From assembly GCF_042453785.1 (NCBI RefSeq), contig NC_091663.1, forward strand, positions 34,026,001 through 34,090,000: 64,000 bases of DNA, written 5' to 3'. Below the pieces are notes generated by a model. The model ran no database searches, had not been told where the DNA came from, and saw only the letters and a program-made list of their open reading frames with translations. Shown here piece after piece: positions 5,643 through 36,922 of the stretch (its first letter is position 1; every line of letters starts with the position of its first letter). The stretch comes from Malus domestica. Its lineage: Eukaryota; Streptophyta; Magnoliopsida; Rosales; Rosaceae. Both the position numbers and the translations under genes were made by a program.

Positions 5643-5740
5643 AATAACTTTCTAATAGCAAGGATTTGAGAAGAATGAGAAAAGCGGAGGCGATGAGCAA
5701 GTAATGATACTGAATAGGGTGATCATTAGCTAGCGGCATG

Positions 5741-11598: not shown

Positions 11599-13002
11599 TC
11601 AAAAACCGTTCATAAGGATCTCCTCCATACGCCTAAGGGCAGTAGTTAAATCTTCATTTGTAGCATTATGCGCCTCATCATGAGGTTCAAAGTGATCAGC
11701 TGCGTTCTGTTCTGTATACCAATGTGCATTACTGTAATCTCCGGTAGTTGCAGCATAATGCTCTTGAGGTTGAAAGTGATTAGATGCGTTCTCTTCTGTA
11801 TACCAATGGGCATTACTGTAATCTCCAGTAGTTGCAGCATAAAGCCCCTGAGGTTGAAAGTGATTAGCTGCGTTCTCTTCTGTATACCTAGGGTCAGTAC
11901 TGTAATCTTCAATCATTGTAGCAGTAAGTGCCTGAGGTTGAAAGTGATCAAATGCGTTTTGCTCCATATAGCTTGTTGCATTATTGTAATCTTCAACAGT
12001 TAAAGCATTAAGCGCCTGGGGCTCAAAGTGATTAGCTGCGTTTTCTTCATAGTTATCTCGTTCCTCCAGCTTCCTTTTCTTTGATATGTCATCCTTTCTT
12101 CTAAGAATACAAAGAACAGTATTCTTCTCCTGCATTCGAGAATCGCGTTTTCTTTTGTTAATATAAATTCCGATCCTTACTAAAATAAATAAAAATGTTC
12201 AACATGCATATACATACATATATATATATATATGTGTAATGTATTGCTTACTCTAACGACTGTAGAAAAGAGAGCAATACTGCAAAGTTTCAATGTCAAC
12301 TAGAAAATTAAGAAAACGAAAAAGGAAATCGCAAATAATTAAGTCCTTATAAGATTGTTCCCATGCCAATATACTTCCTTGCCAGCCAATATTAATATAT
12401 GCATAAGCGTGAATATATTTTATAAGCTTGTGATCTGTCTTTTAACATTTTTCTAGAGGCCAATTTTATATAGTGATTTTCCGAATAATTAGACAGAAAA
12501 CTTAAAAACAATTTAAAAGAAAGAAAAGTGTGCTTACTTGATGATGTTTGTTTCGTAGTAAAGATGGATCAAGATGGAACTCATGCATAATCCAATGGTC
12601 ATTCTGTGAGGATCCTTTGTTCCTGTACGTATATCTTTTCTTTAAGCCAATAGCATGTTTAATCCCAGAAGCGTAGATTTCCTTGCCGGCATCTTCGCCT
12701 TTCCAAGTTCCGCCGGTGGTGCCAACTGTTCGGCAAACACGCGAGCCATTAGGAGCCTTCGAGTTGAGTGTGGTGAAGACGTAGATATCTTTATCATCTG
12801 TACATTCTTGACCATCATGTGATGCACGGTTAAGACGTCTCCATATGTCCGATGGTTCTTCAAGACCGTAGAGATCACAGTCATGAACAATGCCCTTGGG
12901 ATAGTCCTGTCCGTCAAGTTTGGGACGAAGGTAGCCAAGAAGTAGTTCGTCGTCTCGAGGCATGAACCTGTACCCTACTGGAACTTGGTAGTAACCAGCC
13001 AT
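11599..13002 (-). CDS. NAC-domain transcription factor, copy B (2 exons, 331 aa)
   Basis: Exon 1 is 12538-13002 and exon 2 is 12129 down to 11599, with the same phase-0 splice sites as copy A (CAA|GTAAGC, TGCAG|GAG). All five NAC subdomains are readable. Relative to copy A, exon 1 has a few changes (for example KKRYTYR and WIMHEF, the latter closer to the usual NAC MHE motif). Exon 2 is exactly 84 bp longer because the 28-residue C-terminal repeat occurs five times instead of four, so the extra 28 residues come from one added repeat unit. The predicted role is a nuclear transcription regulator with unknown target. A TATA box lies at 13101-13110. Confidence 0.88.
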
Positions 13003-13722
13003 AATAACTTTCTAATAGCAAGGATTTGAGAAGAATGAGAAAAGCGGAGGCGATGAGCAAGTAATGATACTGAATAGGGTGATCATTAGCTAGCGGCATG
13101 TATTTATATAGGTAACAATGGGCTAGGGTTTCTTGTGTGTCAAGCTAGTTAAAATTACTTGGTGTTTATTACGTGGCCTTTTTAACAGGAATTAAGAGAG
13201 TATTTTATCTTTATCATCAACCGCTAGCTAAATGGGAAATAATTCCAGTATAAAAAAGTAACCGTCATTATACATGTATGGTTTAAATTGCCTAACCATA
13301 CAAACATACATACATACATATTTTATAGATGTCTAAACTACATTAATAAAACCCTCTTTGTCAATCAAAAGAGAGTAAAACGATAATTTTGTCTCCTACC
13401 ACAAAACAAAATCATGGGCAGTAAAGTAAATTCACACAAATTAAATTTTGCAGTTTTTTTAAACCCTACATCCTCTAATTTTGAAAAATAAAATACAAAA
13501 AAGAAAACTTCTATCTCGAATCCACATTCCTTTTTTTCTCCTTTCTCCTTCCCATTTTACAATTCAAATTATTTTCACACACAAAGTGTGGGGCATATGC
13601 TAGTATTTATTAGAAAACTTCATTTTAATCCTTGGAAAAGATAATTTTAGAGTATAACCTTGTGTAAGATCAATATCTAATTTTCGTCCCTTAATACATT
13701 TAGTCACCTCATTTATTAATTA

Positions 13723-14080
13723 TGTCGATGCACAAAACCGGAGGTCTTGGAACAACGTAAATCCGACCGTGAATCTGCAAGAAATGTAAATAATACAAGA
13801 TGTATCGTGGTTCGCCCCAATGTTTGGGCTACGTCCACACTGATATTATATTTATCTGAGAGGTGAGGGAGAGAGATGGAGAGAGCTTCTGAGGGTGAGA
13901 GAGCCCTTCTATGGCCTAGGAATTGGCCTCCCCTAATTGTGAGGGTGAGAAGTCCTTTTATAGAATAAGGGCTCCTCGCTTATTACATATTTGCCCATTC
14001 CTTTATTACATAATTACATTTAAGTCCCCCGAGTATTTATACGAGATCTAAATACGGAGACCCTAAGTATGGTACAAACA
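13723..14080 (-). repeat. LARD copy A, 3' LTR
   Basis: The LTR begins TGTCGATGCAC and ends GGTACAAACA on the plus strand. It pairs with 16816-17173. On the minus strand it contains TTCTATAAAAGG, a TATA-like core promoter. The adjacent inner sequence reads, on the minus strand, CTTGGGGGACTAG, in the position of a polypurine tract. Confidence 0.85.
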
Positions 14081-14299
14081 CTAGTCCCCCAAGTCTTTTA
14101 TCAAGAGAGTCTTTTGGCTGGAGACTTGAAATTCAGTCCATGTGTGGACCGAAGTAACTAGATGTCGTCTAGAGCTGAATACTCGATATGAGGCGACGCT
14201 CAATGTGAAATAAGGCTCAACTAGATGTAGTACATGTTGCGAGGCTGCTCGGCTTGTGGCTTATGTTGCCTTGGTTGGCTCGGCTTGTGGCGGTTGAAG

Positions 14300-14530
14300 G
14301 TGAGGGAGTCCCTTTTATAGAATAAGGGCTCGCTCCTCAATACATAAATGATGGGCTAGAGCAGGCGGCGATGCTTTTTAATGATGGTGAGGGAGTCCCT
14401 TTTATAAACTAAGGGCTCGTTCCTCAATACATAAGTGATGGGTTAGGATTGATGCTCGCGGCGAGGCGGTTACTCAGCAGGCGGCGATGCTCTCCTCGAT
14501 ACATAAATAATAGGCTAAGTCCCCCAAGTA
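14300..14530 (-). repeat. Tandem promoter-like modules in LARD copy A
   Basis: At least two partial repeats each carry CCCTTTTATA...AAGGGCTCG...CTCCTCAATACATAA. The minus-strand reading contains TATAAAAGGGACTCCC, closely resembling the TATA region of the LTR. Equivalent repeats occur in copies B (23990-24260) and C (26630-26930). Confidence 0.6.
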
Positions 14531-14679
14531 TTTTTCATGAGGCCCAATTAAGGCCTAATATATGGTACATCCCCAAGTCTTTGGTCAATAGAGTATGTTG
14601 GCTGGAGACTTCAAATTGAATCCATGTATGGGCCGAAGTGGCGGTTGTTCGGAGGCGGTATTTGTATACCCTGCACTGA

Positions 14680-15140
14680 AGCTTTGTAGGTGAAGCTTTG
14701 CAAGTGAAGCTTTGAAGCTAGAGCTCTGTAAATGAAGCTTTTAAAGCTAGAGCTCTGTAAATGAAACTTTTAAAGCTAGAGCTTTTGTAGATGAAGTTTT
14801 TGAAGCTAGAGCTCTGTAAATGAAGCTTTTAAAGCTAGAGCTTTTGTAAATGAAGCTTTTGAAGCTAGAGCTCTGTAAATGAAGCTTTTGAAGCTAGAGC
14901 TCTGTAAATGAAGCTTTTGAAGCTAGAGCTTTGTAAATGAAGCTTTTGAAGTTGATTGACATGAGTGATGCTCATGAATGTTTATGTTGATTGACATGAG
15001 TGATGCTCATGGATGTTGACATGAGTGATGCTCATAAAAGTTGACATGAGTGATGCTCATGAATGTTTATGTATGATTGATATGAGTAATGCTCATGAAT
15101 GTTTATGTATGATTGACATGAGTAATGCTCATGTATAATT
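14680..15140. repeat. Two minisatellites in LARD copy A
   Basis: The first array (about 14680-14950) repeats a roughly 30-bp unit around GAAGCTTTTGAAGCTAGAGC. The second (about 14955-15140) repeats TTGACATGAGTGATGCTCAT, whose core is nearly palindromic. Both arrays recur in LARD copies B and C with different copy numbers. Confidence 0.85.
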
Positions 15141-15719
15141 TGAAGTACTTGGCGTACTTTCGATCACCTGGTTAGTGATAATAGCGGCAGGCTGCTGGAT
15201 AGTTTGGAGTACTGGGCGTACTTTTGATTACCTGGTTGGCGATAATAGCGGCGGGGTGCCGAATAATTTTTTGTAGTACTGGGGGTACTTTTGGTCACCT
15301 GGTTGGTTCTATTTTGGGCTTATGGGCCATTGCCCTCCACACAACATTTCAGCCCATTTATTTTGGGCTTTGCCGTTTTTTTTTATTATTATTATTACCC
15401 TCTGATAGGGTTTATACAGATGTCTCCGAAAGATAAGAAAAATAAATCACATCATACAAAAACAAGGAAAGTAAATCATATCATTCTAGTGTGGTGTTTA
15501 TTCCTTGCTTTTGCTTTCTCTTTTGCTTTTTTTCTGCTTTTTTTTTCCACTGCACTCTCTCTGTCTCTTCACCTGGCAGACAAAAGGAATCATAATAATA
15601 GGAAAATCTTTTGCTTTTCTTCTTTTCTCTCCACTGTGTCTCTATCTCTCCACCTCCACCCTCTCTGGCAGACTTACTTTACTTTTTCTTTTCATTTCCG
15701 TGGATCAGTTTCCAAGGCG

Positions 15720-15925
15720 ATGTGGAGCGCGAGGTAGAAGACGAGCTTGAAGGAGAACTTGCGGAGCTCTTTGAAGAGGACGATGAACCCTGACCCAACA
15801 AACGATAGGCTCGCCGCTCCGATGTTTACTGCCAACAAGACGTGGCGATCGTACGCCGTCAGACCTCCGGCGACTTGCCCCGTCATCACCATTTTCTTCA
15901 CCCACTCTCTTTCGTCGAGGCTCAT
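15720..15925 (-). pseudogene. Captured fragment resembling GCR1 (seven-transmembrane receptor)
   Basis: The minus-strand frame from 15925 contains GGLTAYDRHVLLAVNIGAA, then SFVGSGFIVL, FKELRKFSFK and LVFYLAL. These match, from memory, the N-terminus and first membrane segment of the plant G-protein-coupled receptor-like protein GCR1. About four residues are missing between FIVL and FKEL. The match stops after LVFYLAL and runs into unrelated LARD sequence. It is a partial fragment inside the retroelement and not a functional receptor. Confidence 0.7.
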
Positions 15926-16072
15926 CTCCGGGAATCCCGAGCCTCTGACCTTGTTGACAAACTTCCCTCTGTTGCGAGCCTCTGACCTTGTCAGCCGCCG
16001 GCGTCCGCTCCGAGAACCCGCGAGAGAAGCAAATGGAACTCAAATATGCATTAACAACGAGCATATCATGTT

Positions 16073-16365
16073 TAACTGTTGCAGTGAAATTTTGGATCTG
16101 TCTGATTTTGACAGATTCCTTTCCACTTGGATGGAATCGGTCCATACCCCTCATCACTAAAGCTTTTGGATTCTGGCCTTGCGCCAGTATCAAGGTTTCC
16201 TATGATCGAATCTTCACCATATATTGCCTTCTTCCAGATTGAATTAGGTGGAACAACACCCTCTTGCTCAAGTCCCAAGAAATCCCACGATCGAGTTGTG
16301 TGTAATTTTCTTCGCTGGTTCAAGAATATTGAGACTACCCTTGGACGCCTTGCAATCTGAGTTGC
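16073..16365 (-). pseudogene. Captured subtilisin-like protease (SBT) fragment
   Basis: The minus-strand frame shows RKLHTTRSWDFLGLE, SIWKKAIYGEDSIIGNLDTG and ESKSFSDEGYGPIPSKWKG, a clear match to the start of the mature catalytic domain of plant subtilases. It includes the LDTG motif with the catalytic aspartate. The His and Ser of the triad are absent because the fragment ends at FHCN. The usual GVWPES is GARPES here. It is joined in frame to the TBCCD1-like segment on its 5' side. Confidence 0.88.
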
Positions 16366-16564
16366 CTCGGAGATCGCGAACGAGTCGACTCGGTGACTCG
16401 GCGACTTTACGATCAGCTTCTGCTTGAGCAAAGGTCAGGTCGGTGAAGATGGGCTTGGGGATGGGCAGTAGCCCGAGCTTGAACAACTCGTGGCGCGGGT
16501 GAACCAAGAGGGTCGGATCCTTGGCCGAAGACGATGTTGTTGCGGGCTCAATTGAGTCGCTCAT
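16366..16564 (-). pseudogene. Captured N-terminal fragment resembling TBCCD1
   Basis: The frame from the ATG at 16564 reads MSDSIEPATTSSSAKDPTLL, then HPRHELFKLGLLPIPKPIFTD. After a +1 shift it continues LKQKL...SHRVDSFAISEA. From memory this resembles the N-terminus of plant TBCC domain-containing protein 1, a cofactor-C-like protein. The frame then enters subtilase sequence near 16365 at EATQIA, a residue string compatible with both families. The single-base shift inside means the full fusion is not open. Confidence 0.6.
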
Positions 16565-16815
16565 AGCTTCTTTTCCCAGGAAGCAGCAAAACGCAGAGTT
16601 TTTATGTAGACAGATTTGTGAGTTGCAGATCTTCCAGAAATGAATAGAGAGAGAGAGAGAAAAAAAAAAGGGTTTTGGACCTTTTTTTTTTTAGACTGCA
16701 CAGATTCTGCGAAGGTTTCTTGGAAAAGCCCAAAGAGTGAGGTTTTCTGGTGAGATGAAAAAATGAAAGAGAACCGACATAGTTTTTCGTGTCGTTTCCC
16801 ACAGACGGCGCCAAA

Positions 16816-17173
16816 TATTGATGCACAAAACCAGAGGTCTTGGAACAACGTAAATCCGACTGTGAATCTGCAAGAAATGTAAATAACACAAGATGTATCA
16901 TGGTTCATCCCAATGTTTGAGCTACGTCCACACTGATATTGTATTTATCTGAGAGGTGAGGAAGAGAGATGGAGAGAGCTTCTGAGGGTGAGAGAGCCCT
17001 TCCATGGCCTAGGAATTGGCTTCCCCTAATTGTGAGGGTGATGAGTCCTTTTATAGAATAAGGGCTCCTCACTTATTACATATTTGCCCATTCCTTTATT
17101 ACATAATTACATTTAAGTCCCCCGAGTATTTATACAAGATCTAAATACAGAGGCCCTAAGTATGGTACAAACA
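16816..17173 (-). repeat. LARD copy A, 5' LTR
   Basis: This is the partner of 13723-14080, also 358 bp. Immediately inside it (16815 downwards) on the minus strand is the GGCGCC-containing primer site, which fixes the orientation of the element. Confidence 0.85.
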
Positions 17174-17178
17174 AATTA

Positions 17179-18289
17179 TATTTTGATGTCTTATTTCTCT
17201 TTTTCTTTCTAATTTTAATGTTTTTTCTTAACAAATGATATTATCTGCTCTATCGGGAACATGGTGGGCTTAGTCTCACAATAGGCTAACAATAATGTGA
17301 TTCAGCTTCACCTTTAGTGAAAATCGAACATAAAACATTTCACTTACAAGTGAAGAGGAATATCACTACACCGTAGTACTTAAAAATTTAAGTTACAATA
17401 ACGATTTATTTTAACTAATTGGGTAAACTAATAACAAAAAGCATCCCAAAAATAACAAAATGTCAAAGAGAACAACCATTTTACATCATCAAAATATAAG
17501 GGGTAGGCAAATGAATCATGGACCCGCAGGTCGGGTGGGTTCAACTTCAAGCAGTTTGAGGCGGGTACAGGGCGGGTTTAAATATTTTGAAGAAGAAACA
17601 TGACGGGGTGGGACAGGACTGGTATAGGAATTGATGGGGTAGGGCGGTCCAAAAATAGGAGAAATGTACCTCTAGCATTGGATAATTGGATTGGATTTAA
17701 TGATTAATCTCACTTCCACTACACCGTTGGATTTAATTTTTTTCCATCACTTAGACACTCCTGTCCCATTCACTCATGACTCGAGTCACTCGACAGCAAC
17801 CATCACCAATTCCGACTTGGACACTTGATGGCCCTGGTCTCCATAGACGATGGTGGTGTTCAATAATCTTGATGGCGGTGAAGAGGTGGTCGAGATTGGA
17901 AGGTTTGGCAGGAGTTGAAGGTGATGCAGTCCCAACTCGCAAGTTGCTAGAGAGACGAATTCAAAAACAACACCTTATCTACTAAGATATTATATCACAT
18001 GTCAAAAATTTGAATTTAAAAATGATAATTTCGACCAATTTCACTTACTTTTGACGTTTGGGTTAAAAACTGCCTTACTCATGCTTGTTCAACTCTTAAA
18101 CTTTTCCTTACATTTTTTAATGTAGATTAGGAATATGCTAGTTTTCCTTCTTCATCTTCTTAATTTATCAATGTTCTAGTAATATTTTTTTAGTTACCAT
18201 TAGATTCAAATTAGTTGGCCTTACCCAAGTCATCCTAAGGCCCAACCAAAGCAAAAACTTTAAAAAAATATATATAAACAAAAAAACTA
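17179..18289. other. Block 2 spacer after the LARD insertion
   Basis: It continues the block spacer interrupted by LARD copy A and matches 7700-8800. It includes the G-rich patch near 17525-17660. I see no gene. Confidence 0.5.
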
Positions 18290-18540
18290 AATTGTACAAA
18301 AATATGAATCAAGTTCTCAAAAATGATCGAAGCCTGGAAGGTTCCCACTTCACAGTTACAGAGGTGATAAAAACGTCGCCGCTTCCGATGCTCCTGTGGT
18401 TCTCATTTCCCTCCGTTCTCCGTAGCTTTTTCCTTAGGTATTTTTCTTCAATAATCTTTCAATCAAAATTCTTGAAAATATCAACAACGTCAAGTGCCTG
18501 TCTCTCTCAGCTTATAATTTGGAGGTAAGCATGTCCTCAC
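18290..18540 (+). pseudogene. F-box gene 5' leader remnant, block 2
   Basis: This is the block 2 copy of the sequence at 8800-9055. It again has the splice-donor-like CTTAGGTATTTTTC and the truncated CTGTCTCTCTCAGCT join. No F-box domain follows. Confidence 0.5.
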
Positions 18541-18651
18541 TTGTTTCTTTGTGTTATGTATGTTGGGAAGAATTATAAGGAAGTTATAATGATTAGGGTG
18601 GAGGTTAAAGGTAAGAAAAGACAGTGACTACCTGTTTGTTAGATCGTAGCC

Positions 18652-19095
18652 CGTATTTTAAAAAAATATTTTTAAGACTCGCCAAGACAGTTTTTGGGGA
18701 GGAAGGAAATGCCTTTGCCCGGCGGGAGTGGGCATAGCCTATAGACTAGCCTGAACACCTAGGTTGTTCGCCTCAGGCGCCTAGGCAACCTCAACGTTTG
18801 ATTTTTTTTTCTTTTTTAAGAACAACCTAAATCCAAAATGACGTCGTTTTGGGCAGGGTTTTTATAAAATTCATGCTAGCTTTATGTTTCTAACTTGGTT
18901 CTATTAGTTTGTTATGACTTTATGATGTGAATTAGAGAAATAATAATAATAGTTAATTCAATTCATTTATATATATACAATATTGTAAATTCAATTAATT
19001 TATATATTATATAGTAAATTTACTTAAATCCGTCTAGGCGCTAGATATCAGCTCACCGCCCGATTAGTGCTTAGTGTCTTTTAAAACTTTGCTTT
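18652..19095. mobile_element. MITE-like repeat, block 2 copy
   Basis: This is the duplicate of 9163-9615 with the same TTTTAAAA-type ends and GCCTAGGC palindromes. It moved with the block and is not an independent insertion. Confidence 0.4.
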
Positions 19096-19387
19096 ATTTT
19101 GCCAAGTGCAATACTAGGGATTCGAAGGAATCTGCTTTTTCTGATGCCATTTTTTCAATTGTATTGCACAGTTTATGAACGTACCTGGTGAATTGAACCC
19201 TGGCTTTTGTATGAAGTCCATTCTACCAATTTTTTGTTGTTTATTTATATTGTGATATATTTACACTAAAGCATCATAAATCGAGAGGCAGGATGTTGGA
19301 AAATTAATATTTTACATTTCATGTCCGTCGGAATGCTCACAGGCCAAATTTCATGAGAAGGTAAAATACCTATTTTGGCAGAACATG

Positions 19388-19695
19388 CACTACAAAAAAA
19401 AATAAATCATCTGGGCGGACGAAAAATTTCGTTGGGTCAAATTTTGTTTTGTCGCCTAAGACTTTAGATGACAAAAGTTGGTTGGGAAAAGTTGGTCCTG
19501 CAAAAACCCATCACTCGAAGTCTTATTCGACGAGAAGTAGTCGTTTGTCGGGCAAAAATGATTTTGCCCGATGAAAGAAGTCGCTAGGATAAAGTGCATT
19601 GATTGCCTTTACCTAACGAAAATATTATACCCGATAACATCGTTTTGCCCCACTAAATTAAATACTATTAAAAACTTGATCCTACGAAATTTTCA
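19388..19695. mobile_element. CACTA-like remnant, block 3
   Basis: This is the same CACTACAAAA-led remnant as 9911-10205. Confidence 0.5.
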
Positions 19696-19707
19696 TGGGT
19701 CTCCTAG

Positions 19708-19925
19708 AATTTGGAGTCTCTTAGGGCATACCAACCCATATAACTTGTCATCCTCGAAATGGCTCACAAGGAACTTCTCTATATGCCTAAGGGCATTAGT
19801 GAAATCTCCATTTGTAGAATTAAAAGCCTGAGGTTGGAAGTTATCAAATGTGTTTTTCTCTATGTATTGTAATCTTCCTAGTTATAGCATGAATTAAGCG
19901 CCTGAAGTTGAAAGCGATTAGCTGA
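19708..19925 (-). pseudogene. Decayed NAC exon-2 fragment, block 3
   Basis: This is the third copy of the degraded NAC C-terminal exon described at 320-540. It has no open NAC frame. Confidence 0.65.
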
Positions 19926-20786
19926 GTAGTTAAAGTTAGATTAAGTTACTAACTAGTTAGCACTTATATATGGCAAGTTAGCAACATTCGTTTATCTAAA
20001 ACCATAACCTATCACTACTAAAAAAATCTCAAAGGGAAAGGAATGTAGAGTGACCGATCTTTTCTAGAAAAATTGAATTGAAATCATGTGCAAGCGCTTG
20101 TTCTCTCCTACCAGAGAACTTCCATTGCTTCCACCCGAGGGTAGGGTGGGCTCCGATCCAGGGATGTGTGTTGCCTTATCTGAAGCACTTGACCTTTTAA
20201 CCATTTGTTTTAAAGAAGGCGGACTTGCGGCGGGTTAACATGTATATAGGTTAGAAAGCGGAGTTTCATTGGTTAAAGTTCTTTCCAAGCACGCAAATTG
20301 GGAAGAGGTTTAACGTAGCTACTTGAGCCTAGAAGATGAGAGTACAGTTGCATGCCAATGTTTTCATGGAATCAGCTCCTTTGAGGATTTAAGCAAACTA
20401 TTTCAAGAAATCCAATTCAACGCTACAAGCAAAGGTTTTTTGTATACAACCAATAAAATTTCCGCGAATAAAATCTTCTGCTTGTTAATTATCTTCTATT
20501 TGAAACAAATACAACCAAGCTTATTGTTATAAGCTCCCCAACTGATTTAAGGCAAAGCCATAACGTGTGATCAACACATTAAATTTTCCTTCTCCTGATA
20601 ATTCGTCCGAAGTAACTTGTTTGTATGATAGCCAATCAGGCGATTGGCAAAGAAGGCTCAGTCCCCTTAAGACCACAAATGCAAAAAAAGCTTCCTGACA
20701 TCACGAGTAATTAAAACGAGGCATTGTACTCATTTGATTTACACGAGCGAGCACTCTTGAATTCGTCGGTTTCTTAAAAATGACTT

Positions 20787-21342
20787 TGTTGATGCACAAA
20801 ACCAGAGGTCTTGGAACAACGAAAATCCGACCGTGAATATGCATGAAATATAAATAACACAAGATGTATCGTGGTTCACCCCAAGGTTTGGGCTACTTCC
20901 ACACTGATTGTATTTATTTGAGGGAGAAAGAGCTCTGAGAGTGAGAGCGTTGAGAGGGGGTGAGAGGGCCTAGGAATTGGCCTAAAAATGGCCTGAGAAT
21001 TGGCCTAGGAATTGGCCTCAGAATATATGGTACATAATGTTGTTCCAAGACCTCGAATTTACGTTGTGTACCATATATTGGGCATCAACTGGGCTTCATG
21101 AAAAATACTTTGGGGACTGAGCCCATCACTAATGTATTGAGGAGCGAGCCCTCTCCTAGGTCCTCTCACCCCCTCTCAACGCTCTCACTCTCAGAGCTCT
21201 CTCTCCCTCAAATAAATACAATCAGTGTGGACGTAGCACAAACATTGGGGTGAACCACGATACATCTTGGGTTATGTATATTTCATGCAGATTCACGGTC
21301 GGATTTACGTTGTTCCAAGACCTCTGGTTTTGTGCATCAACA
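20787..21342. repeat. Palindromic LTR of LARD copy B
   Basis: Arms of roughly 180-190 bp (20787-20965 and 21150-21342) are inverted copies of each other, starting TGTTGATGCAC and ending GTGCATCAACA. The spacer contains repeated AATTGGCCTA-type motifs and a copy of an internal LARD sequence (ATATATTGGGC...TGAAAAATACTT, compare 23930-23970). Confidence 0.85.
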
Positions 21343-21820
21343 TTTGGCGCCGTCTTTGGGAATCGACACAAAAAACTATGTCGGTTCTCTCTCAATTTTT
21401 CACCTCCACCGTGAATCTACACAACCCAAAAAACCACTACCAGATGCAAATTTCAAAGCTTCTGAATACAAAAACCACTACCAAACGCAACCAGCAACAC
21501 AAACAAATCAATCGCACCACTACCCAGATCACAAAGATGGAAACTTTCTCAGATTTTCAATAGCAAGAAGTTGAGGAAGATGCCTTTTCCCTCTGCGATC
21601 TCCCGCTGCACGACGACAATGACAAATCTTTCTCTCATGGCTAAATCTCAAAACGCCCAGAGATGATGCACAACTTCCATCCATATGCCACTGCCTCGGC
21701 TTGCTTACACAACAATCTCTCAATATCTCTTCAATCTCTCTCAACGCGTTCAAAGAAATGGCCTCTTCTTCGACACAAAGGTGGTATTGTTTTGTTAGGT
21801 TCTGGAAATAAGTAGCAAAG

Positions 21821-22064
21821 ATGATTTTAGAGAAGCCCAGTTGGATTAGACATGAGGGAATGCAAATTTTCTCCATTGACGTTCAACCTGGTGGACTTAG
21901 GCTTGCCACGGGTAGGGGTGATCACAAGGTGCAGGTGGGCTAAACATGGTCGGTTTCTTGCATCAGGATCTGATGAACAAATGATTTTAATTCATGAGAG
22001 AAAGCCTGGTTCAGGAACCACTGAGTTTGGCCGTGAAGAGCCACCTGACCTTGAAAATTGGAAA
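21821..22064 (+). pseudogene. Captured HIRA fragment (WD40 histone chaperone)
   Basis: The ATG at 21821 opens [20 protein letters not shown] then [15 protein letters not shown], the N-terminus of plant HIRA, a WD40 chaperone that deposits histone H3.3. At about 21928 the sequence jumps, with a frame shift, to [17 protein letters not shown] and [13 protein letters not shown]...PPDLENWK. In HIRA this belongs about 35 residues further on. No intron-like sequence separates the two parts, so the join looks like two exons with the intervening exon skipped. The match ends at 22064. It is not a functional gene. Confidence 0.85.
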
Positions 22065-22640
22065 TCTGCTAACCACAGGAGCTTGATGATACTAAGATTT
22101 CAGCTTCCGCCTTCTTTAGACCTTCAAAATTTCCAGATTTTAGCTTCCGCCTGCAAATCATTAGGGTTCCCATTGATTTCGCTGCATAAGAGGGTTTCTG
22201 GTTCCCTGATCGTCCAATTCCTCTCTTCCTTCATGCCCGCGAGACTTTCGATTTTTCAGATCTGGCAGTGGCACCACCAGTCACCAGCGACCCCGAGTGC
22301 ACCGCCACCAGCCACTTCGTCGTCACCCATACCACCATCGACGACTCCATCTCCGGCCACGTCGAAAAACTCGACGATCTCAACTCTCACTGCGACCTCT
22401 CCTCGCTTCCGACACCGTCCTCTACAAATGTTTCCGACCTCGCCACCTGTGTCGACCCCTCTCCTCACCGAGTTCAACCACCAGCCCCTCATCTCTATCA
22501 ACTGAACCTCGAAACATGGTGGTCCATCGAATCCCGAAATATGGTCCATCAACATTTGTGCATCAGCTATTGCATTTCTCCAGACAACTTTCTCCAGATC
22601 TCACAGATTTTACAGCTAGAGTACACCAGCTAATGTTCAG
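22065..22640 (+). other. Unidentified captured sequence in LARD copy B
   Basis: This GC-richer, coding-like stretch has a frame from 22268 ([20 protein letters not shown]...), and a Pro/Ser-rich overlapping frame runs on from HIRA. It is absent from LARD copies A and C. I do not recognise the donor gene. Confidence 0.4.
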
Positions 22641-23524
22641 ACGCAGTGGAAAGAAAAAGCAAAAAGAAAAAGCAAAATGTGACAGCATAACATGCAACTT
22701 CTCGACACTTTGTCACTCTTGGAGTTTGGAGCAGTTGGAGACGGGACCCTAGATGGTGAAGGGGGACCCTGCCAACAGAAAAATCAAAGAAGATAGCACA
22801 TGGGTTATGCACTTTCTTACCCACCATGTGGAGGCAAAATCTAGTCTGGTTGGCAGTGAGCCTTGAAAAGAGGGAAAGTCTTGCTGACAGAAAAATCAAA
22901 GAATGAATGAGGAGAGTACATGGGAAACAAAAACAAAAGCAATAAAAGTGCAGAGGAAAGGCAAAAGCAATCAAGTGATATGCGGGAAACAAAAGCAAAA
23001 GCAAGGAATAAACACTCATACTGCAAAAGCAAGGAATAAACATCCCACCAGAATGATGTGATTTGCTTTTATTGTTTTTGCAATGATGTAATTTATTTTT
23101 CTTATCTTTCGGAGACATCTGTATAAACCCCATCAGAGGGTAATAAAAAAATAAAAAAATTAAAAAAAAAAGGGCAAAGCCCAAAATAAATGAGCTGGAA
23201 TGTTGTGTAGAGGGCGAAGGCCCATAAGCCCAAAATAGCCCCAACCAGGCGATCAAAAGTACGCCCAGTACTCCACAATTATTCGACAACCTACCGTTAT
23301 TACCAACAACCAGGTGATCAAAAGTACTCCCAGTACTCCAAAATTATTCGACAACCCGCCGCTATTACCACCAACCAGGTGATGAAATGTATAACCCGTA
23401 CTCTAATATCATTTGGCAACTAGCCATTCATGACACCAACCAGGTGATGAAATGTACAACCCGTACTCTCCTTCATGCCACCAACCAAGTGATCAAAAGT
23501 ACGCCCAATACTTCATATTATACA

Positions 23525-23815
23525 TGAGCATTACTCATGTCAATCATACATAAACATTCATGAGTATCACTCATATCAATCATACATAAACATTCATGAG
23601 CATCACTCATGTCAATCAAACATTCATGAGCATCACTCATGTCAATCAAACATTCATAAGCATCACTCATGTCAATCAGCTTCAAAAGCTTCATTTACAG
23701 AGCTCTAGCTTCAAAAGCTTCATTTACAAAAGCTCCAGCTTCGAAAGCTTCATTTATAGAGCTCTAGCTTCAAAGCTTCACTTGCAAAGCTTCACCTACA
23801 AAGCTTCAATGTAGG
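23525..23815. repeat. Minisatellites of LARD copy B
   Basis: Tandem CATGAGCATCACTCATGTCAA units (23525-23680) and AGCTTCATTTACAGAGCTCT units (23680-23815) are the reverse complements of the arrays in copies A and C, as expected from the opposite orientation. Confidence 0.85.
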
Positions 23816-23989
23816 GTATACAAATACCGCCTCCGAACAACCGCTACTTCGGCCCATACATGGATTCAATTTGAAGTCTCCAGCCAACAAACTCTATTGA
23901 CCGAAGACTTGGGGGACTACATTATGTACCATATATTGGGCCTCATGAAAAATACTTGGGGGACTGAGCCCATCACTTATTTATTGAGG

Positions 23990-24265
23990 AGCAAGCCTTT
24001 ATTCTATAAAAGGGACTCCCCCACCTTCATTAGAGAGCAATGCCGCCAGTTGAGCAACCGCCTCACTGCGAGCATTAACTCTAGCCCATCACTTATGTAT
24101 TGAGGAGCGAGCCTTTATTTTATAAAAGGGACTCCCTCACCTTCATTAGAGAGCAACGCCGCCAAATGAGCAACCGCCTCACCGCGAGCATCACTCCTAG
24201 CCCATCACTTATGTATTGAGGAGCGAGCCCTTATTCTATAAAAGGGCATCCCTCACCTTCAAAAG
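23990..24265 (+). repeat. Tandem promoter-like modules in LARD copy B
   Basis: Three repeats of about 110 bp each contain GAGGAGC..GCC...TTATTCTATAAAAGG or a close variant, followed by ACTCCCTCACCTTCA. They resemble the LTR core promoter (24590-24610). They lie just inside the 3' LTR. Confidence 0.65.
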
Positions 24266-24474
24266 CCATAAGCCGAGCCAACCAAGGCAACATAAGCCAC
24301 AAGCCGAGCAGCCTCACGGCATGTGCTACTTCTAGTTGAGCATCATTTCAGATTGAGCACCGCCTCATATCGAGCATTAGTTCAAGACAACATCTAGTTA
24401 CTTCGGCCCACACATTAACCGAATTTCAAGTCTCCAGCCAAAAGACTCTCTTGACTGAAGACTTGCGGGACTAC

Positions 24475-24834
24475 TGTTTATACCATATTTAGGGCCTCCA
24501 TATTTAGATCTCGTACAAATACTCAGGGGACTCAAATGTAATTATATAATAAAGGAATGGGCAAATATGTAATAAGTGAGGAGTCTTTATTCTATAAAAG
24601 GACTTCTCACCCTCACAACTAGGGGAGGCCATTCCTGAGGCCAATTAATAGGCCTTCTCACCCCCTCTCAACGCTCTCACTCTCAGAGCTCTCTCTCCCT
24701 CAAATAAATACAATCAGTGTGGACGTAGCCCAAACCATGGGGTGAACCACGATACATCTTATGTTATTTATATTTCATGCAGATTCACGGTTGGATTTAC
24801 ATTGTTCCAAGACCTCCGGTTTTGTGCATCAACA
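24475..24834 (+). repeat. LARD copy B, 3' LTR (360 bp)
   Basis: The LTR starts TGTTTATACCATATTTAGG after ACTTGCGGGACTAC (polypurine-tract position) and ends GTGCATCAACA. It contains TTCTATAAAAGG near 24592, a probable TATA box. Confidence 0.85.
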
Positions 24835-25174
24835 GACTTCCCCACGGATATTGATTTATGAAATAATCTTACACAAAGCAACCCAATTTCAGGTGTCATG
24901 GTGCATGATACAATTCAAGGAAGTAGGTAAATATATAAACCGAAAATATCAACAGTATGAAAGTTATAAAGCAGAAAACATGATCACTTTACAATTCGTG
25001 GTTAGCCATTGATTTGCTCTGGTTGGCAAAACCAGTGACGACTAACAAGCATTTTACATTAATCCTCTTTTTGTGTAAGCAATACCAACAGCTGCGGCAA
25101 TTTGTTCTTCTTCTTCTATAATTTGGAGTCCCTCAGGACATACCGACTCATATAACTTGTCATCCTCGAAAACG

Positions 25175-25703
25175 GCCCATAAGGATCTCCTCCATACGCC
25201 TAAGGATAACAGTTAAATCTTCATTGTAGCATTATGCGCCTTATCACGAGGTTGAAAGTGATCAGCTGCGTTCTGTTCTGTATACCAATGGGCATTACTG
25301 TAATCTCCGGTGGTTGCAGCATAAAGCCCCTGAGGTTGAAAGTGATTAGCTGCGTTCTCTTCTGTATACCTAGGGTCAGTACTGTAATCTCCAATCGTTG
25401 TAGCAGTAAGTGCCTGAGGTTGAAAGTGATCAAATGCGTTTTGCTCCATATAGCTAGGGGCATTATTGTAATCTTCAACAGTTAAAGAATTAAGCGCCTG
25501 AGGTTGAAAGTGATTAGCTGCGTTTTCTTCATAGTTATCTCGTTCCTCAAGCTTCCTTTTCTTTGATATGTCATCCTTTCTTCTAAGAATACAAAGAACA
25601 ATATTCTTCTCCTGCATTTGAGAATCGCGTTTGCTTTTGTTAATATAAATTCCGATCCTAACTAAAATAAATAAAAAGGTTCTACATGCATATACATACA
25701 TGC

Positions 25704-25754
<51 letters not shown>

Positions 25755-26050
25755 TTTCAATGTCAACTAGAAAATTAAGAAAACGAAAAAGGAAATCGCA
25801 AATAATTAAGTCCTTATAAGATTGTTCCCATGCCAATATACTTCCTTGCCTGCCAATATTAATATATGTATAAGCGTGAATATATTTTATAAGCTTGTGA
25901 TCTGTTTTTTTTAACTTTTTTCTAGAGGCCAATTTTATATAGTGATTTTCCGAATAATTAGACAGAAAACTTAAAAACAATTTAAAAGAAAGAAAAGTGT
26001 ACTTACTTGATGAAGTTTGTTTCGTAGTAAAGATGGATCAAGATGGAACT
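25175..26050 (-). pseudogene. NAC copy C, disrupted (3' portion)
   Basis: Exon 2 (25611 downwards) matches the intact copies with four C-terminal repeats, but a one-base deletion near 25223 shifts the frame before the normal end, and the usual TGA is CGA (near 25168). Exon 1 is cut at 26050 by LARD copy C and resumes at 30025-30173. There it breaks off at GGTGCCAAC, so the first half of the NAC domain and the start codon are gone. This copy cannot encode a NAC protein. Confidence 0.85.
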
Positions 26051-26410
26051 TGTTGATGCACAAAACCAGAGGAGTCTTCGAACAACGTAAATCCGACCGT
26101 GAATCTGCAAGAAAGTAAATAACACAAGATGTATCGTGGTTCACCCCAATGTTTGGGCTACGTCCACACTGATATTGTATTTCTCTGAGAGGATTGTGAG
26201 GGTGAGGGTGAGAGCTTCTGAGGGTGAGAGAGCTCTTCCCATGGCCTAAGAATTGGCCTCCCTTAATGAGGAGAGTGAGGAGTCCTTTTATAGAATAAGG
26301 GATCCTCACTTATTACATATTTGCCCCTCCATTTATTACATAATGACATTTGAGTCCCCCGAGTATTTATACGAGGTCTAAATATGAAAGCCCTAAGTAT
26401 GGTATAAACA
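26051..26410 (-). repeat. LARD copy C, 3' LTR
   Basis: The plus strand runs from TGTTGATGCAC to GGTATAAACA, 360 bp. It pairs with 29666-30024. Confidence 0.9.
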
Positions 26411-26629
26411 GTAGTCCCCCATGTCTTGAGTCAAGAGAGTCTTTTGGCTGGAGACTTGAAATTCAGTCCATGTGTGGGCCGAAGTAACTAGATGTCGTTC
26501 AAAATTGATACTCAATATGAGGCGGTGCCCAAGCTAAAATGATGCTCAACCAGAAGTAGCATATGTTGCGAGGCTGCTCTGCTTGTGGCTTATGTTGCCT
26601 TGGTTGGCTCGGCTTGTGGCATTGAAGGT

Positions 26630-26930
26630 GAGGGAGTCCCTTTTATAGAATAAGGGATTGCTCCTCAATACAAAAATGATGGGCTAGGAGTGATGCTCAC
26701 GGTGAGGCGATTGCTCAGCTGGCGGCGATACTCTCTAATGAAGGTGAGGGAGTCCCTTTTATAAAATAAGGGTTCGCTCCTCAATACATGAATAATGAGT
26801 GCTCTCTAATGAACCCTTTTATAAAATAAGGGCTCGCTCCTCAATACATGAATATTGGGTGCTCTCTAATGAAAGTGAGGGAGTCCATTTTATAAAATAA
26901 TGGTTCGCTCCTCAATATATAAATAATGGG
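26630..26930 (-). repeat. Tandem promoter-like modules in LARD copy C
   Basis: Four partial repeats of CCCTTTTATA(G/A)AATAAGGG...CTCGCTCCTCAATACA (near 26638, 26753, 26815 and 26888) recall the TATA region of the LTR. Confidence 0.6.
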
Positions 26931-27089
26931 CTAAGTCCCCCAAGTATTTTTTATGAGGCCCAATATATGATACATAGTATAGTCCCCCAAGTCTTCAGTC
27001 AATAGGGTCTGTTGGCTGGAGAATTCAAATTGAATCCATGTATGGGCCGAAGTGGCGGTCGTTCGGAGGCGGTATTTGTATACCTTGCA

Positions 27090-27530
27090 CTGAAGCTTTG
27101 TAGGTAAAGTTTTGTAAGTAAAGCTTTGAAGCTGGAGCTTTGTAAATGAAGCTTTTGAAGCTGGAGCTCTCGAAACTAGAGCTCTGTAACTAAAGTTTTT
27201 GAAGCTGGAGCTCTCGAAGTTGGAGCTCTGTAAATGAAGCTTTTGAAGCTGGAGCTCTCGAAGTTTGAGCTCTGTAAATGAAGCTTTCGAAGTTGATTGA
27301 CATGAGTGATACTCATGAATGTTTTATGTTGATTGACATGAGTGATGCTCATGGATGTTGACATGAGTGATGCTCATGGATGTTGACATGAGTGATGCTC
27401 ATGAATGTTGACATGAGTGATACTCATGAATGTTGACATGAATGATGGTCATGAATGTTTATGTATGATTAACATGAGTGATGCTCATGAATGTTTATGT
27501 ATGATTGACATGAGTAATGCTCATGTATAA
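27090..27530. repeat. Minisatellites of LARD copy C
   Basis: Arrays of GAAGCTGGAGCTCT-type units (27090-27290) and of TTGACATGAGTGATGCTCATG units (27295-27530) are homologous to those in copies A and B, with different copy numbers. Confidence 0.85.
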
Positions 27531-28337
27531 TTTTGGGGTACTGGACATACTTTTGATCACTTGGTTGGTGATAATAGCGGCAGGGTGCCGAATAATTTTG
27601 AAGTACTGGGCGTACTTTGGATCACCTGGTTGGTGATAATAGCGGCAAGTTGCCGAATAATTTTTTGTAGTACTGGACGTACTTTTGATCACCTGGTTGG
27701 TGATAATAAAGGGCCTGGCTCTTTTGGGCATATGGGCATTCGCCATCCACATAACATTCCAGCCCATTATTTTGGGCTTGTCGTTTTTTTTATTTTTTAT
27801 TACTCTCTGATGGGGTTACACAGATGTCTCCAGAAGATTAGAAAAATAAATTACATCATTCAAAAAAGTTGTTGCAAAAGGTGGTTATGGCATATGGTTG
27901 GATAATGGGATAGTATGTCCAGCTAGCAGTTGCGAGGGGTAGGGCGCTTGAAGATTTAAGCCAAAGTGACAAAACCTTTCTATCATCACCCATTTGCTTT
28001 ACTTGATCTCCCCGCTCCAATAGGGCTCACTTCCTTTCACTCCTCCCCAGTACATAAAATATTCCACAATGATAAAAGTATTCCGAAAGCACTTTGGCAT
28101 CAGCATATATCTTATTCATTTTCTCCACCTACAGACTTTCTTTTCCTTTTTTTTTTTTTTGCTGCCTTGCTGGTTGTAACTCCATTTGCATACCTGAAAC
28201 CATGTGTGGCTGGTTCCCATGGTCGACAGTTGCAAGTTTACAACATGGGTGAGCAGGCAAGCGTGTTAGCAACAAGCATGGGTGAGCACAGGTTTTACTA
28301 TTGTCTGGAAGGCAAAAGCTTAGCAGTCCAGCCTTCA

Positions 28338-28481
28338 ATCTCTTGTTTCAGCTTGGACATTCTGTGAAAAATGATTAATGGCCATTCGATCGAACCAGTT
28401 ATTTTTGTAGACTATCTTGTCTTCTACTGCAGCACCTGACAGTCTTGTATCTGCTACTATGTTCATGTTCTCCGTCGGTGA
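28338..28481 (-). pseudogene. Captured fragment resembling D27 / D27-like isomerase
   Basis: The minus-strand frame reads SPTENMNIVADTRLSGAAVE, DKIVYKNNWFDRMAINHFSQ. The core VY.(D/N)NWFDR.AINH resembles the start of the DUF4033 domain of DWARF27-type carotenoid isomerases (strigolactone pathway), from memory. Only about 48 residues are present and the match then stops. LARD copies A and B lack it. Confidence 0.6.
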
Positions 28482-28524
28482 TGTAAGCACCGCGACTATC
28501 GAACAACACCATAGCTTGTTGCGT

Positions 28525-29480
28525 TCATGTACATGCCATGGCCGAGCCATAGTTGTCGTTACAAAGCTCCGGCGGCCACCAAATTATTCTTGCTTTTGCA
28601 ACTGAGGCTGTGATGACGACGGGAGTTGTTGTAGAACTACTACTTGATAATGAACTACCACATGAACCGCTACAGGTAGAGCTTTTCTGTAGGCAAATTT
28701 GATCAACGGTCTCCATGAACCCACGTTTCATCGAGCTGCTGCTGCTGCTACTACTTATCTTGAAGTCGAAGAATGAGATGTAGAGGTCCACGTTGGAGAT
28801 ATACGATACGCCCGTGTCCTTCTATCTACGGTAGAACCGCGTTTTCACCTCCGTCTGCTGCTCGTGGAAGGCCCTGACTGCTGGTTTTTCTATTGGCTTG
28901 ATCTTTTCTGCCATGCTCAATAACTTGAATTGAAACGGGGAAGCCATCAGAGAAAGCTTCAGCTTGAATTAGGGAACCAAAATAAACAACTCACAACTTG
29001 GTTTCAATCAATTTAGTTTTATTTTTTTTTTGCAAAAACTGAAAACTGATCCATCTCAATTTCTTTGAAACTCAACGGAGTTCTGCAGTGGACTTATCCG
29101 CCTTCAATTTCGTTGGGGAAACGACGGGGCTTGTCGGGAAAGTCGAACCCGACTGAGATCGTGGTGGTCTAGCTTTGGGTCCAAGTTTGGGACACGTACA
29201 AAAGACACGGGCGAGTTGAGTTTGAGGACTAGAGCACGATGGTGGTTTGGAGGTTGGTCCACTAGAGGTAATTTTGCTCTCTGTGTTGCATAGAGAAAAT
29301 GAGTGAGAAAGAGGGTAGCAGCCTCAACTCTAGGACTTTAGGGCAGAAATTCCTTTGCGAAAATTGCAATTTGGGGCAGAGAAAAGCATGGGAAATCGCC
29401 AGAGCCATTTACCCTGTGGAAAATGAGTTTTGGTTTTTAGAGATGCAAGAAGAAGAAACTAGAGACAGATTACAAGACAG
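28525..29480 (-). other. Unidentified coding-like cargo of LARD copy C
   Basis: On the minus strand this includes MALAISHAFLCPKLQFSQRN (start near 29412, transit-peptide-like), a frame starting MASPFQFKLL and MAEKIKPIEKPAVRAFHEQQ with an early stop (about 28830-28950), and a Ser-rich frame (28525-28791). I recognise none of them. They probably derive from one or more host genes, because copies A and B have different sequence in this position. Confidence 0.4.
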
Positions 29481-29665
29481 AGAGAGGAGAGAGAAGAAAC
29501 CGTGGTTGAGTTTAGGAGTTTTCATTTTTGCATTTTTGAGAAATGGGTTTTGCAGTGACTCTACAGGTGTTTCGTTCTTGGGTTTCTGCAGATTCACGAC
29601 GGAGGTGAAAAATTGAGAGAAAACCGACATAACTTTTCGTGTCGATTCCCACAAACGGCGCCAAA

Positions 29666-30024
29666 TGTTGATGCACAAACCGGAGGGGTCTTGGAACAAT
29701 GTAAATCCAACCGTGAATCTACAAGAAAGTAAATAACACAATATGTATCGTGGTTCACCCCAATGTTGGGGCTACGTCCACACTGATATTGTATTTCTCT
29801 GAAAGGATTGTGAAGGAGAGGGTGAGAGCTTCTGAGGGTGAGAGAGCTCTTCCCATGGCCTAAGAATTGGCATCCCTTAATGAGGAGAGTAAGGAGTCCT
29901 TTTATAGAATAAGGGCTCCTCACTTATTACATATTTGCCCCTCCATTTATTACATAATGACATTTGAGTCCCCCGAGTATTTATACGAGGTCTAAATACG
30001 GAGGCCCTAAGTCTGTTATAAACA
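29666..30024 (-). repeat. LARD copy C, 5' LTR
   Basis: This is the 359-bp partner of 26051-26410. It abuts the primer site at 29645-29665. Confidence 0.9.
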
Positions 30025-30173
30025 GAACTCAAGCATAGTCCAATGGTCATTCTGTGGGGATCCTTTGTTCCTGTACGTAAATCTTTTTTTGAAGCCAATA
30101 GCATGTTTAATCCCAGAAGCGTAGATTTTCTTCCCGGCGTCTTCTCCTTTCCAAGTGCCGCCGGTGGTGCCAA
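30025..30173 (-). pseudogene. NAC copy C, truncated 5' portion of exon 1
   Basis: This continues NAC exon 1 beyond LARD copy C, covering roughly residues 95 to 142 of the NAC domain. It ends abruptly at GGTGCCAAC, followed by AGTTGCATGCC from the block spacer. A short overlap (CAAC/AGTTG, against CAACTGTT in intact exons) suggests joining by microhomology. Confidence 0.85.
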
Positions 30174-30565
30174 CAGTTGCATGCCAACTATTTCAGGAAA
30201 TCCAATTCAACGCTAAAAGCGAAGGATTTATTATACAACCAATACAATTTCCAAGAAATTAAAAAGTACGTACTGCTTGTTAAATATCTTCTGTTTGAAA
30301 CAAATTCAACCAAGCTTATTGTTATAAGCTCCCTGACTGATTTAAGGCAAGGTCATAATGTGTGATCAACACATTAAATTTTCCTCTCCTGATAATTCGC
30401 CCTGAAGTAACTTGTTAGTATGATAGCCAAGCAGGCGATTGGCAAACAAGGCTCGATCCCCTTAAAACCACAAATGCAAAGAAAGCTTCCTTACAACACA
30501 AGAAAATAAAACGAGGCATTGTGCTCATTTGATTTACACGAGCGAGCATTCTTGAATTCATCGGC

Positions 30566-31648: not shown

Positions 31649-32989
31649 TCAAAAACCGCTCATAAGGATCTCTTCGATACGCCTAAGGGCAGTAGTTAAA
31701 TCTTCATTTGTAGCTTTATGCGCCTCATCATGAGGTTCAAAGTGATCAGCTGCGTTCTGTTCTGTATACCAATGTGCATTACTGTAATCTCCGGTAGTTG
31801 CAGCATAATGCTCCTGAGGTTGAAAGTGATTAGCTGCGTTCTCTTCTGTATACCTAGGGTCATTAATGTAATCTCCAGTTGTTGTAGCAGTAAGTGCCTG
31901 AGGTTGCAAGTGATCAAATGCGATTTGCTCCATATAGCTAGGGGCATTATTGTAGTCTCCAACATTTATAGCATTAAGCGCCTGAGGTTGAAAGTGATTA
32001 GCTACGTTTTCTTCATAGTTATCTCTTTCCTCCAGCTTCCTTTTCTTTGATATGTCATCCTTTCTTCTAAGAATACAAAGAACAATATTCTTCTCCTGCA
32101 TTTGAGAATCGCGTTTGCTTTTGTTAATATAAATTCCAATCCTTACTAAAATAAATAAAAAGGTTCTACATGCATATACATACATACATACATACATATG
32201 TGTGTGTGTGTATATATATATATATAATGTATTGCTTACTCTAACGACTGTAGAAAAGAGAGCAATACTTTTTATTAGTGAGCAAAGTTTCAATGTCAAC
32301 TAGGAAATTAAGAAAAAAGAAAAAGGAAATCGCAAATCGCAAATAATTAAGTCCTTATAAGATTGTTCCCATGCCAATATACTTCCTTGCCTGCCAATAT
32401 TAATATATGTATAAGCGTGAATATATTTTATAAGCTTTTGATTCGTTCTTCTTAACTTTTTTCTAGAGGCCAAGTTTAGACAGAAAACCTAAAAACAATT
32501 TAAAAGAAAGAAAAGTGTACTTACTTGATGATGTTTGTTTCGTAGTAAAGATGGATCAAGATGGAACTCAAGCATAATCCAATGGTCATTCTGCGGGGAT
32601 CCTTTGTTCCTGTACGTAAATCTTTTTCTGAAGCCAATAGCTTGTTTAATCCCAGAAGCGTAGATTTCCTTGCCGGCATCTTCGCCTTTCCAAGTGCCGC
32701 CGGTGGTGCCAACTGTTCGGCAAACACGCGAGCCATTAGGAGCCTTCGAGTTGAGTGTGGTGAAGACGTAGATATCTTTATCATCTGTACATTCTTGACC
32801 ATCATGTGATGCACGGTTAAGACGTCTCCATATGTCCGATGGTTCTTCAAGACCGTAGAGATCACAGTCATGAACAATGCCTTTGGGATAGTCCTGTCCG
32901 TCAAGTTTGGGACGAAGGTAGCCAAGAAGTAGTTCTTCGTCTCGAGGCATGAACCTGTACCCTACTGGAACTTGGTAGTAACCAGCCAT
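31649..32989 (-). CDS. NAC-domain transcription factor, copy D (2 exons, 303 aa)
   Basis: Exon 1 is 32525-32989 and exon 2 is 32095 down to 31649, with the same phase-0 splice sites as copy A. Exon 1 differs from copies A and E at one residue (Glu for Asp at 18, inside subdomain A). Exon 2 has four 28-residue repeats and small changes (ALNAINVG, EAHKATN, RRIEEIL). The full set of NAC subdomains is open. The TATA box is at 33088-33097. The near identity with copies A and E points to recent duplication or gene conversion. Confidence 0.87.
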
Positions 32990-33517
32990 AATAACTTTCT
33001 AATAGCAAGGATTTGAGAAGAATGAGAAAAGCGGAGGCGATGAGCAAGTAATGATACTGAATAGGGTGATCATTAGCTAGCGGCATGTATTTATATAGGT
33101 AACAATGGGCTAGGGTTTCTTGTGTGTCAATCTAGTTAAAATTACTTGGTATTTATTACGTGGCCTTTTTAACAGGAATTAAGACAGTATTTTATCTTTA
33201 TCATCAACCGCTAGCTAAATGGGAAATAATTCCAGTATAAAAAAGTAACCGTCATTATACATGTATGGTTTAAATTGCCCAACCATACAAACATACATAC
33301 ATACATACATACATACATATTTTATAGATATCTAAACTACATTAATAAAACCCTCTTTGTCAATCAAAAAAGAGTAAAACGATAATTTTGTTTCCTACCA
33401 CAAAACAAAATCATGGGCAGTAAAGTGAATTCACACAAATTAAATTTTGCAGTTTTTTTAAACCCTCACCCACGGGTGATCCTAACGTCCTCTAATTTTG
33501 AAAAATAAAATACAAAA

Positions 33518-36590: not shown

Positions 36591-36922
36591 AATAACTTTC
36601 TAATAGCAAGGATTTGAGAAGAATGAGAAAAGCGGAGGCGATGAGCAAGTAATGATACTGAATAGGGTGATCATTAGCTAGCGGCATGTATTTATATAGG
36701 TAACAATGGGCTAGGGTTTCTTGTGTGTCAAGCTAGTTAAAATTACTTGGTATTTATTACGTGGCCTTTTTAACAGGAATTAAGACAGTATTTTATCTTT
36801 ATCATCAACCGCTAGCTAAATGGGAAATAATTCCAGTATAAAAAAGTAACCGTCATTATACATGTATGGTTTAAATTGCCCAACCATACAAACATACATA
36901 CATATTTTATAGATATCTAAAC

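Follow-up and report, generated by a model that had tools for sequence, protein, structure and literature searches.

Three related non-coding long terminal repeat (LTR) retrotransposons, referred to here as A, B and C, lie within 17 kb of one another in a 64,000-nucleotide stretch of the apple genome (Malus domestica, contig NC_091663.1, positions 34,026,001 to 34,090,000 of the forward strand; this whole stretch is called the window, and all positions below are counted from its first letter). They belong to one family, and in each of them the interval that gag-pol would occupy holds pieces of host genes, a different set in each copy. It is probable, in our judgement, that these pieces were taken up when reverse transcriptase switched from the RNA of the element onto host messenger RNAs (mRNAs).

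The elements and their insertion sites

Comparison of the window with itself was used to define the elements, their LTRs, the module that they share and the intervals in which they vary. Element A (13723..17173, minus strand, 3451 bp), element B (20787..24834, plus strand, 4048 bp) and element C (26051..30024, minus strand, 3974 bp) are all non-autonomous, and they are three separate insertions, because each has its own 5-bp target-site duplication (AATTA at 13718-13722 and 17174-17178 for A; GACTT at 20782-20786 and 24835-24839 for B; GAACT at 26046-26050 and 30025-30029 for C) and because the site without the insertion can still be seen for each of the three in a duplicate of the locus elsewhere in the window (near 33896 for A, 11263 for B and 12580 for C). 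Element C lies in one of several tandem copies of a NAC-like gene, this one being truncated (26045-30178). Common to all three elements are the LTRs, a leader of roughly 64-92 bp containing the primer site and a 3' module, about 1.45 kb long, that is rich in minisatellites. What separates leader and module, 1.2-1.7 kb in length, differs from element to element.

The direct LTRs begin with TG and finish with CA, next to the 5-bp duplications, as is usual for an LTR retrotransposon. In A they lie at 16816..17173 (5' LTR, 358 bp) and 13723..14080 (3' LTR), both on the minus strand, and are 95.2% identical, with a Kimura two-parameter (K2P) distance of 0.056; in C they lie at 29666..30024 (5') and 26051..26410 (3'), also on the minus strand, with 94.5% identity and a K2P distance of 0.058; in B the 3' LTR lies at 24475..24834 on the plus strand. 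There are two exceptions, in that the inner end of the A 5' LTR is TA rather than CA and the left LTR of B is replaced by an inverted repeat (see below). Between elements the K2P distances are larger, at 0.094-0.132 for the four LTR pairs compared, although the limits set for the LTRs in obtaining all of these values were too generous by as much as four bases; since the LTRs differ more between elements than within them, the sublineages split earlier than the elements were inserted. A and C would have been inserted approximately 2.2 million years ago at an assumed rate of 1.3e-8 substitutions per site per year, and approximately 5.7 million years ago at an assumed 5e-9. An exact 37-base pattern taken from the LTR found no match in viral contigs.

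In all three elements the sequence TGGCGCCGT starts 2 nt past the end of the LTR and opens a primer-binding site (16796..16813 in A, minus strand; 21345..21362 in B, plus strand; 29646..29663 in C, minus strand). The site is putatively tRNA-Asp-like, to judge from some nine bases, and no tRNA gene was found in the window with which it could be compared. Past the LTR the leader continues to match for about 64 bp between A and C, and for about 92 bp between B and C. The shared 3' modules (14081..15514 in A, minus strand; 23023..24474 in B, plus strand; 26411..27866 in C, minus strand) lie directly before the 3' LTRs and are 75.6-77.2% identical over their main stretches, rising to 81.8% over 391 bp of A and C. 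They contain minisatellites of three corresponding types (about 29, 25-36 and 64-65 bp), present in A as three arrays, together with TATA modules, two in A and three each in B and C. The underlying motif, TATAAAAGG, occurs 13 times in the window, every time inside one of the elements and in its sense orientation (one per LTR that has a U3 region, i.e. in five LTRs, with the remainder in the 3' modules), whereas 100 shuffles of single bases gave 1.26 on average. In a Pfam search in all six reading frames, neither the three cargo intervals nor the three 3' modules gave a retroelement domain at E <= 0.1. Self-comparison, target-site duplications, shared leader, LTRs and minisatellites, and the lack of any gag or pol domain all bear out the earlier proposal, made from the sequence alone, of a single non-coding LTR family.

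That sequence-only reading had also credited every copy with the shared LTRs, and this stands for A, for C and for the 3' LTR of B, but not for the left end of B (20787..21342, plus strand). There, the final half of the LTR appears as an inverted copy (20787-20983), which is followed by fragments of internal sequence and then by the same half in forward orientation (approximately 21154-21342), the two 189-bp arms of the inverted repeat being 95.2% alike. Because the GACTT duplication flanks it, this structure arrived with the insertion of B, which thus went in with the same LTR end at both of its termini. The LTR copies at the left end differ from each other and from the B 3' LTR by 5-6%, close to what separates the two LTRs within A and within C, and for this reason the arrangement fits a single aberrant event of reverse transcription. 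With no TATAAAAGG at its left end, B probably could not drive its own transcription from that end.

Gene pieces in the variable interval

The variable, or cargo, intervals run from 15521 to 16750 in A, from 21436 to 23022 in B and from 27867 to 29573 in C. Three gene pieces are recognised in A, all on the minus strand, namely codons 1-75, in two frames, of a gene for a TBCC-domain (TBCCD1-like) protein (16351..16564), a part of a subtilase gene running from the end of the I9 prodomain to the start of the protease domain (16078..16350, the protease part being 16078-16299), and codons 1-60 of GCR1 with four internal codons missing (15725..15892). B contains codons 1-39 of HIRA joined to codons 67-116 (21821..22064, plus strand), and C contains codons 8-84 of a D27-like gene (28341..28571, minus strand).

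All five identities, which had been put forward from the letters alone, held up in searches at the protein level. A search of 5.8 billion proteins matched the GCR1 piece with 87% identity (E = 2.5e-18), the TBCC piece to a Pyrus protein with the PF07986 (TBCC) domain with 65% identity (E = 4e-10), the HIRA piece to Malus HIRA with 92% and 82% identity in two stretches (E = 4e-18), and the D27-like piece to a Malus protein with the PF13225 domain with 82% identity (E = 9e-31). For GCR1, TBCC and D27-like the closest proteins were those of Malus and Pyrus; for HIRA the Malus protein was among the close ones. The subtilase piece was matched to cucumisin (E = 6e-12) in a search of PDB sequences, which gave no match for HIRA. 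Pfam by itself is weak on such fragments (I9, E = 0.024; CAF1B_HIR1, E = 0.0009), most of the pieces falling under its cut-offs, and the names TBCCD1 and D27-like are presumed ones, based on the Pfam accessions PF07986 and PF13225. A predicted Malus domestica protein of 221 residues (P0247) has a D27-like N-terminal part fused to other sequence, and could be the product of a chimeric gene or of a further copy of the cargo.

Every one of the recognised pieces lies in the sense orientation of its element, as had been claimed; the chance of this is 1 in 32 if orientations are random and independent. Three of the five begin at codon 1, the D27-like piece begins at about codon 8 and the subtilase piece is internal, while the 3' part of the gene is kept in none. 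Together the pieces make up 1130 of the 4524 cargo bases (25%).

That each copy has a different cargo in the same interval also proved correct. The only DNA matches at E <= 1e-4 between the variable segments of different elements were purine-rich and 24-48 nt long; they link A with B and lie on or close to the module border of A. No cross match at the protein level was better than E = 0.2. This lack of similarity rules out one shared, diverged interior for A, B and C, although a looser alignment suggests that a degenerate stretch common to A and B reaches slightly past the module border used here. The idea of a cargo “slot” needs some qualification: the interval is indeed common to the three copies, but there is no fixed site, as the leader and the 3' module stop at different points in each, and to judge from these differing end points the interval would be better described as a permissive region than as a specific site.

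How the pieces may have been acquired

The course of events that we favour would start with the packaging of element RNA together with host mRNAs in the particles of a related autonomous element, which we assume might be Tat/Retand-like. During minus-strand synthesis the reverse transcriptase would leave the element RNA near the 3' module, move along a host mRNA in the direction of its 5' end, copying it, and then jump back onto the leader of the element; chained jumps of this kind could produce the three-gene cargo of A, and the cargo would afterwards be carried passively, decaying. The retention of gene 5' parts without 3' parts fits copying that begins within an mRNA and proceeds towards its 5' end, and is the reverse of what retrocopies made by long interspersed nuclear elements (LINEs) show.

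An RNA intermediate should also have lost its introns, and here the clearest case is HIRA, in which codon 36 runs on to codons 37-39 without an intron. An exon border at this point is indicated, among 119 HIRA proteins compared, by an insertion in P0181 and a frame switch in P0125. Codons 40-66 may be missing because an intron inside an exon was spliced out or because a deletion took place at a short repeat. In the case of GCR1, 5 of the 118 other proteins in the first set of matches have a gap or insertion directly after codon 61, which leads to a predicted first exon of 61 codons. There are hints that C too crosses an exon border, in that the one chimeric Malus model P0247 departs from the D27 sequence near codon 64.

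All this said, there are a number of points that weigh against template switching. The intron test comes down to one gene with indirectly placed borders, the insertion after HIRA codon 36 being seen in just 1 of 119 models; the GCR1 piece is uninformative, because it lies within the predicted first exon; and donor exon borders throughout were drawn from protein models only. No known origin has been found for 3394 of the 4524 cargo bases (575 in A, 1343 in B and 1476 in C), which may be untranslated regions, further captures or sequence belonging to the element itself. No Gypsy partner was seen in the window, which was not scanned exhaustively and in which the pol-bearing element recognised is of Ty1-copia type. 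Finally, a run of 14 A in the sense of the element (28147-28160) lies about 180 nt past the D27 piece in C and could conceivably be the tail of a retrocopy.

A stronger form of the proposal, which we regard as possible but put forward only tentatively, is that the family acts as a “Pack-LTR” vector, for which leader and 3' module would be enough for packaging and transposition, the interval having been refilled many times across the genome by mRNA 5' ends through jumps at the cap end, so that the 5' ends of cargoes would mark transcription starts.

As to other routes, transcription from an LTR promoter could have read through host genes as far as a second copy of the element, with the spliced RNA then being reverse-transcribed. 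Sense orientation and the absence of the one predicted intron would fit this, as would the fact that the GCR1 piece stops within one codon of the predicted end of the first exon; however, the three genes in A, each without its 3' part, would need several successive events, and read-through predicts no bias towards the 5' ends of genes, making it a rather unlikely explanation. A slimmer chance still is given to capture at the DNA level, whether by repair (gap filling or ectopic conversion), through nested DNA transposons or as nested LINE-type retrocopies. Pack-MULEs are described as taking up exons and introns in this way (PMC4717578), and sense runs of 10-14 A occur in the cargo of A (one) and C (two), one of them following the D27 piece, but capture of DNA accords poorly with five sense pieces out of five and with the lack of an intron at the single predicted HIRA border, and retrocopies by LINEs, which keep 3' ends, are held to be unlikely for pieces with 5' parts and no 3' parts, in spite of the A runs. 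Nested elements within the cargo were looked for only through the repeats given by the self-comparison. That the gene matches arose by chance, or that a single internal sequence has diverged into the variable segments, is scarcely credible: although 75% of the cargo length has no assigned origin and most fragments fall under Pfam cut-offs, the E-values (4e-10 to 9e-31 for apple and pear proteins at 65-92% identity, besides that of the subtilase) rule out chance, and the cargoes show no cross-similarity.

Relation to known elements and significance

The elements had been labelled large retrotransposon derivatives (LARDs), but this name does not suit them well, since the interior of a LARD is described as large, conserved and non-coding, and as usually exceeding 4 kb (PMC4668562), whereas A, B and C measure 3.45-4.05 kb in their entirety, at or below the usual LARD size, and share only about 1.5 kb of their interior. 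In pear, from a related host group, three LARD families with 78 elements and a mean age of 3.17 million years are likewise LTR elements without coding parts, and can be set beside A, B and C by description only; the main text of that paper makes no mention of a gene fragment, host gene or capture (PMC4668562). Nor are they terminal-repeat retrotransposons in miniature (TRIMs), which are very small. In the account given in PMC4717578, 30 TRIM elements in seven subfamilies carry exon-only gene fragments, one of them from three genes, and GmaRetroS15 of soybean and other gene-carrying TRIMs resemble A, B and C in being non-coding, in having a 5-bp target-site duplication and in carrying pieces of up to three genes, which in the TRIMs are exon-only and include one from a 5' untranslated region; they are, however, 1.2-1.4 kb long, as against the 3.5-4.0 kb of A, B and C with their minisatellite module.

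Bs1 of maize is similar, an LTR element in which three host genes are represented by fragments lying between the LTRs, and template switching has been published as an origin of chimeric LTR elements (PMC13317346). It is described there as a transcribed and translated chimeric gene, whereas A, B and C have three cargo sets and no recognised intact chimeric frame; and of the intron-free host exon fragments that typify Bs1, host fragments are present here, with intron loss indicated for HIRA only. A maize survey likewise found repeated capture, with gene fragments in 425 LTR elements of 81 families, most of the elements belonging to families of unknown superfamily, and at least 189 captures, and under its conditions reported no element with more than one gene, where A has three (PMC2774510); captured genes in LTR elements number 672 in rice and 1,343 in sorghum (PMC3726574). 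Tandem-repeat arrays before the 3' LTR are found in about half of the Retand Gypsy elements described, among which there are non-autonomous forms, but their internal regions of 7.4-12.9 kb have pol and antisense open reading frames, mostly TRP28 (PMC11963269), and A, B and C have no pol. The antisense frames of the three 3' modules had no Pfam match, and the Pfam search described above gave no reverse transcriptase by which the elements could be placed in Tat/Retand. The non-canonical TGTT/AACA LTR families of Rosaceae (PMC5659011) were ruled out, the LTRs here being TG...CA.

The suggestion that elements of this kind are unusual or undescribed is thus not supported, gene-capturing LTR elements being already in print (PMC2774510, PMC4717578, PMC13317346): Bs1 and GmaRetroS15 are documented cases of non-autonomous LTR elements that have captured several genes, and the present family is a new example rather than a new phenomenon. 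It is distinct in its size, in its minisatellite module and in having different cargoes in all three copies seen, and no description of it was found in the literature searched, a search outside which most subscription papers lie.

NAC-like genes form a tandem array in the surrounding region, with a NAM domain in each of the four copies tested (5145-5651, 12505-13011, 32492-32998 and 36093-36599), and this array provides internal controls. Lying 3' of the NAC-like open reading frames are coding-like 84-bp tandem repeats (28 residues per unit; 11681-12048, with duplicates at 4407, 25248, 31731 and 35315), which had no Pfam match in the single copy tested. Pieces of Ty1-copia-type pol (RVT_2 and integrase) lie at 37753-41338.

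Three related copies with three unrelated cargoes amount to a natural experiment, in which the ends, leader and 3' module appear as the parts that are required and the interval as an exchangeable one. Should copies prove to be numerous, the ends of their cargoes would reveal whether capture makes use of mRNA 5' ends. Elements that carry pieces of genes can also give rise to false gene annotations, and, by extension from maize work cited in PMC13317346, small RNAs directed against the donor genes are a possible consequence.

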